From: Dyadobacter sp. 50-39
GTDB taxonomy: Bacteria > Bacteroidota > Bacteroidia > Cytophagales > Spirosomataceae
Length of the DNA: 64,000 nucleotides
Reading direction: 5' to 3'
NCBI GenBank assembly: GCA_001898145.1
Contig: MKSR01000048.1
Location: 62,001-126,000, forward strand
Shown here: piece after piece, positions 40,708 through 56,582 of the stretch
How the letters are laid out: each line of letters begins with the position of its first letter
How positions within the stretch are numbered: the stretch's first letter is position 1
Translations under genes and position numbers: made by a program
The notes under the pieces: model-generated
Seen by the model: only the letters and a program-made list of their open reading frames with translations
Databases searched by the model: none
What the model was told of the DNA's origin: nothing

Positions 40708-40751
40708 GTAGTCATCGGCCTTTCTTCCGAAAGCCATGTTAACAGCGTTTG

Positions 40752-40905
40752 CAGGCAGGTCTTCTGACTCGTTCAACCCTTGTGCCTTCCCGGGGCAAGC
40801 CCAGTGACATCTTACAAGAGCCTCGTAATGAACTCACAGCAGCGGAGACTGTTCCGGATTCTCACCGGATTCCCTTTTAACCACGCATGAGGCGTGTACC
40901 TGGAT
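40752..40905 (-). ncRNA. Cobalamin riboswitch (btuF-pduO-cobUTSC operon)
   Basis: On the minus strand the conserved elements occur in order: GGTTAAAAGGGAATCCGG, then GAATCCGGAACAGTCTCC, GCTGCTGTGAGTTC (the L5-L13 contact), and the closing GTCAGAAGACCTGCC (the B12 box). The peripheral helix between them is short (CACTGG..CCCGGG with a small loop). The end lies 45 bp before the start codon of the binding-protein gene, so control of translation is plausible. Confidence 0.95.
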
Positions 40906-40910
40906 GGCCG

Positions 40911-40918
40911 CAAAACTA
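40911..40918 (-). promoter_or_regulatory. Candidate -7 element of the btuF-cob operon
   Basis: On the minus strand the sequence reads TAGTTTTG, matching TAnnTTTG, a few bases upstream of the aptamer. A possible TTTG (-33) is 24 bp away, slightly more than the usual spacing. Confidence 0.55.
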
Positions 40919-52947: not shown

Positions 52948-53129
52948 CTTTAAACTATCGATAAATTGAAAGTCAAGGCAACTTCAAATGCATTCGATAG
53001 CAACAAGAATAGAAAGGGATTCCCGGGCGACGATGCCACCCGCTAATCACCGGCACGCCCATGCAAGCGAAAATCCGACGAATATCCAAACCAGACCCTG
53101 CTTCATACCGCGAAAGCATTGTCAACAAG

Positions 53130-53262
53130 GAAAGGATGGGTACTCTGGCTTAGGTCAGTCCAAGATTGACCTTTTACAGTTGCGCGACAGCTCGTGACTT
53201 CCACCCGATGAGTGGCCCGACGATTCCCCCATAATGCGCTGATGCGCATTACCTTTTCCTGT
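53130..53262 (-). ncRNA. Cobalamin riboswitch (cbiA-cobN-chelatase operon), compact form
   Basis: On the minus strand: AATGCGCATCAGCGCATT (first stem), GGGGGAATCG, GGTGGAAGTCACGAGCTGTC, GCGCAACTGTAA (L5 contact) and AAGCCAGAGTACCCATCC (closing box). The conserved elements are in the right order but the aptamer is short, around 130 nt, unlike the two others. About 185 nt separate it from cbiA; this leader has hairpin-forming sequence around GCTTTCGCGGTATGAAGC. Confidence 0.85.
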
Positions 53263-53293
53263 TGGAGAAGTATGTTAAAGAACTCTTATGCCG

Positions 53294-53316: not shown

Positions 53317-53353
53317 TTTTCTGGCTTATCTCCCATAAAAACGCATAGCTTTG
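53317..53353 (+). promoter_or_regulatory. Promoter of the transporter-btuB operon
   Basis: TTTTTCTG (around 53317-53324) and TAGCTTTG (53346-53353) are separated by about 20 bp, as expected in Bacteroidota. Transcription would start at about 53360, at the first base of the aptamer. Confidence 0.6.
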
Positions 53354-53357
53354 CACA

Positions 53358-53606
53358 TTCATTGGTTCACGCCCACGGCGTGATTAAAAGGGAATCCGGT
53401 GTAAATCCGGAGCAGTTCCCGCTGCTGTAAGTTCATAAAACGATGTCCTGGCAATTTGTCACTGGATTGGAATGAGTGAATGAGTCAATGAGTGAATGAG
53501 TGAATATTCTTTACAGCAAAAATATTCACTCATTCACTCATTCGCACATTCACTCATTCTCCCGGGAAGGCGCCAGCGACTTGAACGAGCCAGAAGACCT
53601 GCCGTT
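53358..53606 (+). ncRNA. Cobalamin riboswitch (permease-btuB operon) with repeat insertion
   Basis: Elements in order: CACGCCCACGGCGTG (stem), ATTAAAAGGGAATCCGG, AATCCGGAGCAGTTCCC, GCTGCTGTAAGTTC, and AGCCAGAAGACCTGCC. The sequence is close to the riboswitch at 40752-40905 over most of its length, but the peripheral helix CACTGG..CCCGGG contains an additional ~90-nt hairpin (53470-53559). CCTGCCGTT at the 3' end can pair with AACGGCAGG at 53647-53655, a possible switching helix. Confidence 0.92.
53470..53559. repeat. Hairpin of 8-bp repeats inserted into the riboswitch
   Basis: The left arm contains AATGAGTG repeated four times (the second copy reads AATGAGTC) then AATATT; the right arm is the near-perfect complement. 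35 of 38 paired positions match, around a 12-nt loop. The same element type is a miniature inverted-repeat-like structure, but it has no terminal target-site duplication that I could identify. Confidence 0.9.
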
Positions 53607-53655
53607 GAATAATCCGGTTTTGCTTTCGGGAAGAAAGGCAAGAGGAAACGGCAGG
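53598..53655 (+). promoter_or_regulatory. Possible expression-platform helix
   Basis: CCTGCCGTT (53598-53606, end of the aptamer) is fully complementary to AACGGCAGG (53647-53655). The downstream strand also forms GGCCG/CGGCC. The pairing would compete with closure of the aptamer, a mode used by other cobalamin riboswitches; this is inference. Confidence 0.5.
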
Positions 53656-53723
53656 CCGCACAACGGCCGCGCCACTCCCTGCATTCTCCCATAGGTTATT
53701 TTTTAATTTATGTGGAAATCCAA

Positions 53724-54374
53724 ATGATTCAGTATCTGCTTATTGACTCCCTGCTACTCGGGGTACAGCATTCTTTCGAACCCGACCATATGGCTGCGGT
53801 TTCGGTCCTTGCGACGGAACAAGGGAAGGGATCCGGCCAGCAGGGTGCAGCCCCGCGGAGACCGGTTCGCTGGAAACTTATCTGGCTGTCGTCGCATTGG
53901 GCACTGGGGCATTCGTTTACACTCATTTTGTTTGCCGTACTGGTGCTTTTGCTCAAATCGACCATGTCGCTGCACATCGCCGACCGTGTAGAAATGCTGG
54001 TTGGTCCACTGATGATCTGGCTTGGTATCCTGGCGATCCGGCGGAATTTCAAGGCCGCATCACCGGCTCCCGCCGAACGTAAAGTCAGCCGTTCGTTCTG
54101 GGTCGGAATGGTTCATGGCCTCGCGGGTACGGGCGGTGCGTGCACGGTTGCCCTTACCCTGGCCGCGCGCGATGCTATGACAGCCGTGTGGATCATTGTT
54201 TTGCAAAGTCTGGGCATTATCCTTTCCATGTCGACCTATGGCTATTTTTTCGCCTTTTCCGTCGGGCGTTTTGCCGGCAAGCGCGAACGTTTTCTGATGG
54301 TCGTCAACTACCTGGTGGGTGCCTTTTCCATCCTGATCGGAGCTGTTACCCTTTTTGAATCATTTCAATTCTAA
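53724..54374 (+). CDS. Nickel/cobalt-type permease (HoxN/UreH-like)
   Basis: 217 residues from ATG 53724 (a GTG at 53712 is possible). Six hydrophobic helices. LLGVQHSFEPDHMAAV is the His-x4-Asp-His signature of NiCoT and UreH-type metal transporters, and SSHWALGHSFTLILF and VGMVHGLAGTGGACTV carry further His/Gly motifs of the family. Because its mRNA begins with a cobalamin riboswitch and it precedes btuB, cobalt import for B12 synthesis is the most likely role. Export of metal is the alternative for this group. The gene ends 3 bp before btuB. Confidence 0.85.
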   Translation: MIQYLLIDSLLLGVQHSFEPDHMAAVSVLATEQGKGSGQQGAAPRRPVRWKLIWLSSHWALGHSFTLILFAVLVLLLKSTMSLHIADRVEMLVGPLMIWLGILAIRRNFKAASPAPAERKVSRSFWVGMVHGLAGTGGACTVALTLAARDAMTAVWIIVLQSLGIILSMSTYGYFFAFSVGRFAGKRERFLMVVNYLVGAFSILIGAVTLFESFQF

Positions 54375-54377
54375 ACA

Positions 54378-56582
54378 ATGCATAGCCCATTTTACCGCCC
54401 ACTCCGCCGATCTGCCGGCGGCTGGCTTTTCTCTATCCTGGCCATTTCAAATGTTGCCGTTCCGACAGCTTCCGCCCAGGAAAGCAGCGCCGATTCTTCG
54501 GGCAAAAAACTGCTAGACCCCGTCGTGGTAACGGCTACGCGTTTTGAAACCAAAAAGGAAAAAATCGCTCAAAAGCTCGATATCATTACCCGAGAAGATA
54601 TTCAAATGACGCCGTCCGTGGACATTACCGATATTGTGAGAAAAACGGCTGCGGTAGACGTTATCCAGTACCCCAACTTGTCCTCCGGCATCGGCATCAG
54701 GGGCTTTCGTCCGCAATTTTCGGGGTTAAATCAAAGGACTCTGCTGCTGATCGACGGCCGCCCTGCCGGTGCTACCAACCTCTCGCAGATCAACCTGAAT
54801 GGCATCGAACGCATTGAAGTACTGAAAGGCCCCGCCTCTTCGCTTTACGGTTCGCAGGCGATGGGCGGCGTGATCAATGTGATCACCCAGCGCTCGAAAG
54901 GGACACCGGGTGGTAACGCATTCCTGGAATATGGTAGTTTTAAAACTATACAAATGGGCGTGAACACCGGGGGCAATATTACGTCCAGACTGGATTACGA
55001 CCTGTCATTCAGCTACCTGGAAAGGTCCAGGGACTTTAAAATCGGCGACGACAACTGGCTCCGCAATGCATTCGGGTACCGGCATGCACGGAAGAACTAC
55101 TCCGACCGGCCGGCCGTCGAAACCGATGAAACAACGGGAGATGGCCAACGGCGTCCATTTACCAAACTCCATTATTTTTCGGGTGCATTGCGGTTAGGCT
55201 ATCAGATCACCGAGCATTGGCGTGTGGATGTGCGCGGGGAACAATTCCAGGCGAGGGATGTAGAATCGCCGGGCGAGCTATCTTCCGGAAGCACAGAGGC
55301 CAGTACCAAGGATGTTGACCGGCGCGCGCTGGATATCTCGCTCACCGGCCAGATCGGCCAGCATAGTCCGAGCGTTAAAATGTATGCCTCCGAGGAAAAC
55401 ACCCGAAATTACACGCAGAATGCATCGGGCAAACCGGTGATACCATTCCGTTCAGCGCAAGGTCATAACGCATGGAAAGGCGTTCAGGTGAAAGATGTCT
55501 GGAAACTCGGCAGGCATTCGGTGATATTGGGGTACGATTATCTCCATGCGTCCACCAACAGTCGCCGCTGGACCAATGACACCACCGAGCGGGCTCCTAC
55601 CCAACCGGAATATGCATTGATTTCCAGCGCATTCTTTGCACAAGCGCTGCTGAATGTGGGTAAAATCACCCTGCAACCGGGTATCCGCATCGACCACATT
55701 ACCTTCGATGTCCGCGAAACGCCCTTGTTACCTACCTACAAAGCCGGTAAAAAGACGACGCCATTCACCAGTCCGAGTATGGGCATTACTTACGCCCTCC
55801 TACCCTCGCTCCGCCTGAAAGCCAATATCGGCCGGGCGTTCGTCACTACCGATGCATATAGTGTTGCCGGTTATAATGAAGTCCGCGACGCCAAGGGCAG
55901 GATCGCCGTCACCGCCGGTAATCCGGACCTCAAAAACGAAAGCAGTCTGAGCTGGGACCTCGGCCTCGATTTCCATAAACCGCAATCCGGCTTCGCTGCC
56001 AATGTGACTTTTTACAACACAAAAGTCGAGAACCGGATAGCCAAGATCATTAAAGTTGTGAATGAACCTTTGGAAAACGGCGACGTCATCACTTCAAGAG
56101 CCACATTCGTGAATGCCGCCGACGCGGAGATCACCGGTTTCGAGACTGAACTATCGTACGACTTCGGTGCCAGGAGCAGTTATCGCTATTCCCTGAAAGC
56201 ATTTTGGAACGGTAATTCCATAATTAAAGCCAAAGAGCTCATTGTGGGCACCGACGCGTCCCAACTGCGGCGCGACATTCAGAACGTCGCACGCAATACT
56301 TTCAATTTCGGATTGGCTTATGATAATCTAAAATGGCTGCAACTGCGCCTTTCGGGAAGAGCGATCGGAACGAGGAAGGACATCGACTACACCGACCCCA
56401 TCAACCCGGAGATCGAATATCCGCAATACATGGTACTGGATTTCGTGGCGCAGTTCAAGATTTCAGGCGGCCATACCATCTCATTGAAATTAAACAACCT
56501 GACCGACGAAAATTACTACGAAAAACGAGGATACAACCTACCCGGACGGGCAGTATCGATGCGGTATGTGAAGAGTTTTTAA
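54378..56582 (+). CDS. btuB: BtuB-like TonB-dependent outer-membrane receptor
   Basis: 734 residues. A signal peptide (to about residue 34) ends SAQE. A plug domain follows (DPVVVTATRFETKKEKIAQK as the TonB-box region; INLNGIERIEVLKGPASSLYGSQAMGGVINVIT as two plug motifs, shortened here to their hallmarks), then a 22-strand barrel ending NYYEKRGYNLPGRAVSMRYVKSF. Location behind a cobalamin riboswitch and the permease gene supports corrinoid uptake. There is no CarboxypepD_reg extension, unlike SusC proteins. The last residues end in Phe as needed for barrel insertion. Confidence 0.9.
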   Translation: MHSPFYRPLRRSAGGWLFSILAISNVAVPTASAQESSADSSGKKLLDPVVVTATRFETKKEKIAQKLDIITREDIQMTPSVDITDIVRKTAAVDVIQYPNLSSGIGIRGFRPQFSGLNQRTLLLIDGRPAGATNLSQINLNGIERIEVLKGPASSLYGSQAMGGVINVITQRSKGTPGGNAFLEYGSFKTIQMGVNTGGNITSRLDYDLSFSYLERSRDFKIGDDNWLRNAFGYRHARKNYSDRPAVETDETTGDGQRRPFTKLHYFSGALRLGYQITEHWRVDVRGEQFQARDVESPGELSSGSTEASTKDVDRRALDISLTGQIGQHSPSVKMYASEENTRNYTQNASGKPVIPFRSAQGHNAWKGVQVKDVWKLGRHSVILGYDYLHASTNSRRWTNDTTERAPTQPEYALISSAFFAQALLNVGKITLQPGIRIDHITFDVRETPLLPTYKAGKKTTPFTSPSMGITYALLPSLRLKANIGRAFVTTDAYSVAGYNEVRDAKGRIAVTAGNPDLKNESSLSWDLGLDFHKPQSGFAANVTFYNTKVENRIAKIIKVVNEPLENGDVITSRATFVNAADAEITGFETELSYDFGARSSYRYSLKAFWNGNSIIKAKELIVGTDASQLRRDIQNVARNTFNFGLAYDNLKWLQLRLSGRAIGTRKDIDYTDPINPEIEYPQYMVLDFVAQFKISGGHTISLKLNNLTDENYYEKRGYNLPGRAVSMRYVKSF

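Follow-up and report, generated by a model that had tools for sequence, protein, structure and literature searches.

Octamer-repeat palindromes as a variable arm in one loop of Dyadobacter cobalamin riboswitches

The riboswitch locus and its repeat arm

The window analysed here is a stretch of 64,000 nucleotides on contig C48 of the 7.72-Mb genome of Dyadobacter sp. 50-39. The features relevant to this study are the following.

53346-53620, + strand: cobalamin riboswitch aptamer with a repeat arm (RF00174, 98.2 bits, full model 1-189)
53465-53562, + strand: enlarged apical loop, lying between CACTG and CGGGAAGG, 98 nt (the same riboswitch has 6-15 nt there in six relatives with short loops)
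53470-53559, + strand: octamer-repeat hairpin, 90 nt, with 38.3 expected pairs inside and 0.000 with the rest of the RNA
53471-53508, + strand: 5' arm, composed of AATGAGTG, AATGAGTC, AATGAGTG, AATGAGTG and then AATATT
53521-53558, + strand: 3' arm, complementary at 35 of 38 positions
53727-54374, + strand: HupE/UreJ-like permease (weak Pfam match under the cut-off; the ATG start is our choice inside the ORF 53712-54374)
54378-56582, + strand: TonB-dependent receptor, BtuB-like (734-aa ORF, named from sequence and context, without a family-library search)
40736-40918, - strand: second cobalamin riboswitch (RF00174, 107.9 bits), whose homologous loop measures 9 nt, preceding a periplasmic binding protein gene (PF01497)
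53117-53271, - strand: divergent, reduced cobalamin riboswitch without an arm (30.2 bits, just below the gathering score), before cobB (assigned by Pfam)

The score of the RNA at 53346-53620 in cmscan lies above the RF00174 gathering score of 31.5, and cobalamin genes follow it, namely the permease and the BtuB-like receptor, with cobB and the periplasmic binding protein gene as neighbours; by family score and gene context this RNA is a cobalamin riboswitch, for which ligand switching is predicted. The earlier note had described here a riboswitch with a repeat hairpin in a peripheral helix, intact aptamer halves, 35 of 38 matching pairs and a 12-nt loop. All of this was borne out; the full model is matched and the pair count and loop are exact for the arms listed above; an alternative register (53470-53507 with 53522-53559) likewise gives 35 of 38 pairs. 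The motifs that bound the enlarged loop, CACTG (53460-53464) and CGGGAAGG (53563-53570), are separated by 98 nt, compared with 9 nt in the second riboswitch, and 94 positions of the CACUG..CGGGAAGG hairpin are left unshown in the cmscan alignment.

The folding energy of the arm has a z of -11.0 against 60 dinucleotide shuffles. In the predicted ensemble the insert pairs with itself and not with the remainder of the riboswitch (values above), and when the flanks are joined without the insert, 47 of the 50 confident pairs of the remaining riboswitch are predicted to be unchanged. The arm is thus, by prediction, a nonconserved stem-loop at a fixed site that leaves the core fold untouched. A chance inverted repeat is ruled out by this z value and by the absence of reversed-control matches for the repeat 15-mer described below. 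An assembly artefact, which the earlier note had also considered, is ruled out as well, similar arms being read in many separately assembled genomes. Matches of miRNA families to the window hairpin lie far under their gathering scores.

Six cobalamin riboswitches were found in this genome, one of them just under the cut-off, and two carry repeat arms, the window riboswitch and that at C48:154310-154581, both in the same loop; the chance of this is estimated at p of about 0.005, assuming a 10% non-coding share. The view of the window arm as a single insertion has consequently to be given up. The second riboswitch of the window, which had been proposed as an empty site for comparison, does have a 9-nt loop, but counterparts identified by their downstream gene are filled (L168 and L174 among others). 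Read by eye, the reduced riboswitch at 53117-53271 has a degenerate B12 box, and a short simple hairpin replaces the peripheral domain of its relatives; the cobB riboswitches of relatives keep the motif intact, and two of them bear arms (L063, L094). When the downstream permease was searched against the genome collection, the best 15 rows were from Dyadobacter, the first eight being 81-86% identical.

A dispersed palindrome family and one riboswitch loop

Other copies of the hairpin, whose existence the earlier note had thought worth checking, make up a dispersed family. The 15-mer AATGAGTGAATGAGT (at most one mismatch) occurs 93 + 115 = 208 times in the 7.72 Mb, with no match of the reversed control. 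The exact 15-mer is present in 34 of 48 Dyadobacter genomes (control 0), and a degenerate three-unit 22-mer pattern in 39 of the 48, with 1 to 216 matches each (control 0). Members are built from tandem GAATGANT units, a loop, and then reverse-complement units, and are mostly intergenic; merging by hand the matches listed puts the number of dispersed copies in this genome at about 70 or more. Polarity, scored by runs of GAATG and CATTC, is forward-then-reverse in 26 of 28 own-genome elements and in all 48 elements of other fetched loci, giving 74 (riboswitch arms included) against two; the two opposite elements are mispairings with an unrelated CATTC pair.

Among 24 placed own-genome elements, counted without the genome's riboswitch arms (two) and the mispaired elements (two), none lies wholly inside an ORF of at least 120 aa; by a cruder count, 2 of 51 clusters of units fall within ORFs of at least 100 aa. 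Between most of the 24 and the adjacent ORF there are no more than a few tens of bases, and at least six own elements overlap an ORF end by at least 31 bases, where the ORF start may be mis-called. The flanking genes are arranged as -- in ten cases, ++ in eight, +- in four and -+ in two. The idea that the dispersed sites hold another known RNA was rejected: in 35 loci surrounding elements of this genome, cmscan found one tRNA and no other Rfam match at gathering level, and no other family coincides with the elements. At the densest cluster (contig C36, L152:2769-6906), octamer units occupy four successive gaps of an ABC exporter and two-component operon; the third gap shows reverse units only, and the last element extends over about 400 nt. 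The idea of a transposition operon there was discarded, a scan of six proteins having revealed no transposase. The octamer arms of L071, L057, L169, L178 and L181 enclose a 22-nt GC-rich unit, GACCGGGTCGCCGGNGCGATGA or a sequence close to it; GACCGGGTCGCCGGNGCGATGA is found in 37 of 48 Dyadobacter genomes (at most one mismatch, control 0), in places with a 24-nt spacing that equals three octamers.

In the riboswitches, the extra DNA recurs at one place. The survey comprised 150 cobalamin riboswitches among the matches listed in 48 Dyadobacter genomes, taken with stricter filters, as were the TPP riboswitches and RNase P RNAs used as controls. Fifty-eight of the 150, in 30 of the 48 genomes, are at least 250 nt long, and in all 55 of these that were read the extra DNA lies in the same loop. 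A strict unit rule, of at least two forward and at least two reverse unit matches, is passed by 51 of the 55, the other four being degenerate. Six shorter repeat arms (three passing the rule, two failing it yet showing units, and one unparsed and read by eye) bring the total to 61 repeat arms among the 150 listed riboswitches. The site is one apical loop of the peripheral domain, with the CUGUAA segment on one side and the B12 box on the other. The same loop holds a 58-nt non-octamer hairpin in a D. tibetensis riboswitch (G047, L097). Judged by match length alone, the control RNAs are uniform: 116 of 119 TPP matches measure 93-97 nt, the other three 111-121 nt (two of them below the cut-off), and all 48 RNase P RNAs measure 394-416 nt. 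The comparison with the 119 TPP matches gives p = 4e-19; the genomes are related, so this is not a true probability.

By a rough grouping of ORFs, the arms precede five downstream gene groups: permease-btuB, the periplasmic binding protein, a TonB-receptor, a second receptor-like group and cobB. The receptor ORFs that follow the riboswitch at several loci (L034, L170, L180, L184 and L197; L080, L087, L131 and L183 on the - strand) resemble each other at the N-terminus (MF.FTTRCPRYG or MQTQKNCFPRTGN), and a cobB ORF (L056) begins with MQTLQNCRPRTDD; these similar N-termini possibly reflect a shared leader peptide or a mis-called start.

Probable inheritance and turnover of the arm

In local alignments the window arm is closest to its counterpart at the orthologous riboswitch of D. 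soli (score 140), followed by that of BIN28 (128), by the best of the other own-genome copies compared, an intergenic one (122), and by the arm of the other own riboswitch (119). Since both of these orthologous counterparts outscore every own-genome copy compared, the window arm was probably inherited, with turnover, rather than freshly inserted. The earlier note had offered a mobile element or an expanded repeat; the dispersed repeat family agrees with this, but a recent hop is unlikely given the order of these scores.

The comparison with close relatives covers the permease-btuB riboswitch in 28 species, that is, the window and 27 named loci. Octamer arms are present in 20, other-sequence hairpins in two (D. 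luteus and D. tibetensis) and short loops in six. On a tree of the permease, which resolves the window's own group poorly, at least six changes are needed, whether the states are coded as 22 long and six short or as 20 octamer and eight not. Arm length ranges from 36 to about 237 nt. The permease-side riboswitch of L181 (G029) bears an arm of about 190 nt made of GAGTTAGT/ACTCACTC-type variant repeats. The 42-nt arm of SG02 retains two units, AGTC and GTGCG, that the window and D. soli arms have, and looks like a shortened form of this type. The short loops vary freely in sequence among relatives, as expected of a loop without fixed contact. It had been reasoned that the same hairpin in distant relatives would mark an ancient riboswitch arm; the arm is indeed partly old and shared within the genus, but it does not occur in the same form in those outside relatives that were examined.

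Tolerated insertion or functional module

The most likely explanation, to which we assign a probability of about 0.62, is that a genomic repeat palindrome has been repeatedly accommodated as the variable arm of cobalamin riboswitches in Dyadobacter, where it is mostly tolerated and not used. Repeat palindromes fill intergenic gaps across the genus and recur in one cobalamin riboswitch loop, which they would first have reached from the dispersed pool, although their entry is seen at no site. The arm is predicted to fold by itself without pairing to the aptamer, and its turnover and closest similarity to orthologues are those of a variable insertion that is inherited, lengthened, shortened and sometimes lost or replaced; repeat slippage and copying between arms may maintain its complementarity, ligand sensing would survive its presence, and the long duplex would mostly be tolerated rather than used.

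A miniature transposable element inserting recently and independently in each riboswitch loop would account for the dispersed inverted-repeat copies with their fixed polarity, for an intergenic copy (C40:173891-173971) that is 88% identical over 89 of 100 query bases, and for the match between the genome's two riboswitch arms, which is better with one of them turned round with respect to its RNA (104 versus 80.6 bits). Such an element would be expected to have defined ends and a uniform length, whereas own-genome elements measure 59 to 352 nt, often with unequal arms, and the nearest match of the window arm is the orthologous riboswitch of D. soli. The opposite orientation could come from inversion within a palindrome, and the arm at the orthologous site of BIN28 also scores higher reversed (128 versus 105); recent insertion is thus regarded as improbable. 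Still less probable, and in our judgement very unlikely, is growth in situ, in which slippage and template switching would have extended a small loop and the dispersed family would have contributed nothing. Arms of intermediate length, 36-59 nt (L049, L050, L055, L177, L198), are what this process would leave behind, but the unit sequence of a genome-wide family would need to arise in many riboswitches, and the SG02 arm is more easily read as a shortened one.

A serious rival, although an unlikely one, is a domesticated functional arm, in which selection would keep the long duplex, for example because RNase III enters there and sets mRNA half-life, because the duplex stabilises the peripheral domain, or because it delays folding ahead of B12-box transcription. 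Restriction to one loop, before five downstream gene groups, is in line with it, as is the retention of arms in species with few dispersed array matches (D. koreensis 1, LHD-138 4, diqingensis 4), some of which are possibly the arms themselves. Conversely, jiangsuensis, with 72 array matches, has no arm at its permease-btuB riboswitch and one at another riboswitch (L180). In rank tests, which leave out D. psychrotolerans, the relation between arm presence and dispersed copy number gives p = 0.096 for octamer arms against short loops (20 + 5 species) and p = 0.014 against all non-octamer loops (20 + 7 species); arm presence follows copy number weakly, which argues against pure drift from the dispersed pool. 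The apex of the koreensis-group arms, sought in 10 genomes with at most three mismatches, gave seven matches in four genomes, all seven inside cobalamin riboswitches, with one reversed-control match (G014), and it aligns between both riboswitches in each of four species compared, loosely in D. koreensis. An apex confined to riboswitches in this group points to some specific conservation, but at the same threshold it has no match in four group members with known arms (G030, G038, G040, G042). Selection for the duplex also fits poorly with the six of 28 species, near relatives of arm bearers among them, whose permease-btuB riboswitch has just a short loop, and with the wide range of arm lengths. 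Folding of the 58 long loops gave z values from -11.3 to +0.2, and not every arm beats its shuffles. In the single set analysed with RNAalifold, eight koreensis-group arms, one of 35 pairs is changed on both sides and the covariation term is +0.63, almost no support, because repeat registers shift between species. Arms favour their own partners over those of other elements: a swapped 3' arm pairs as well as the own one in a fraction of 0.25 of cases for 38 riboswitch arms and 0.29 for 36 intergenic elements, samples that include related sequences with kinship uncorrected; own-partner pairing being equally strong in intergenic copies, complementarity is a property of the whole family and not specific to riboswitches. 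Taken together, we regard the tolerated variable insertion as most likely.

Related situations are known. STRR sequences have reportedly been found in the RNase P RNA of heterocyst-forming cyanobacteria, as the title of a 1997 paper by Vioque has it. The Dyadobacter family likewise consists of short tandem units, intergenic and inside a structured RNA, but differs from the cyanobacterial case in phylum, repeat and RNA, being a palindrome with both arms in a ligand-sensing leader, in a genus whose RNase P RNAs are without extra length. Barrick and Breaker (2007; PMC2258182) describe an optional P8-P10-P11 domain in the AdoCbl aptamer and, in riboswitches, variable insertions: long stem-loops, not conserved, which sit at particular places and leave the aptamer core undisturbed. 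Like these insertions, the Dyadobacter arm is a stem-loop at a set site sparing the core; unlike them, it belongs to a repeat family visible genome-wide that occupies one loop of several riboswitches, a link to repeats that the available part of that paper does not make. MITEs and Rickettsia palindromic elements are dispersed palindromes that insert elsewhere and give stable transcript structures, MITEs possibly forming riboswitches or terminators; inserts in existing riboswitches are not mentioned in the portion of this source at hand (PMC10969869). The Dyadobacter family resembles them in being dispersed and palindromic but its copies lack fixed ends or length. Another lineage-specific peripheral extension of a cobalamin riboswitch is uMetE2, the P9-P10 extension of the mycobacterial metE switch, for which an effect on expression is reported (PMC11260477); it holds a translated uORF, whereas the Dyadobacter extension is a repeat palindrome. 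Stable variable insertions and repeats in structured RNA are hence already known, and in the literature, incompletely covered here, no report was found of repeats inserted into cobalamin riboswitches, of a riboswitch arm made from the repeat family of a genome, or of the present Dyadobacter repeat.

A parallel in Siphonobacter (Cytophagales, Cytophagaceae) bears on the wider reading and lends something to the functional alternative. At three loci brought in by the permease search (L091, L093, L095), cobalamin riboswitches hold a long hairpin, imperfectly paired and built from repeats of the AACTCTAAAC or GTTTGCCGTTT type, a different family in a different helix from the Dyadobacter arm, between the CTGTAA segment and CCACT. 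Copies of the repeat were counted for the L093 arm, whose 105-nt query has 32 + 28 matches in two Siphonobacter genomes, its own place included. These three loci suggest that, within the order, repeat palindromes peculiar to a lineage have been taken into cobalamin riboswitches on more than one occasion. It is a bolder and doubtful proposal that Cytophagales cobalamin riboswitches repeatedly recruit the dispersed palindromes of their own genome and keep them as a working arm, GAATGANT repeats in one loop in Dyadobacter, with the riboswitch-only apex of the koreensis group, and unrelated AACTCTAAAC-type repeats in another helix in Siphonobacter; if true, the long duplex would serve as a functional module, a processing site for example, and any repeat could be used to rebuild it.

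Riboswitches with arms of this kind may be overlooked or cut short by filters on length or repeats. The origin of the variable peripheral arms of riboswitches is rarely visible; in Dyadobacter, dispersed palindromes, arms of many lengths and short loops coexist in one genus and even in one genome, which makes the capture of a repeat by a regulatory RNA traceable.
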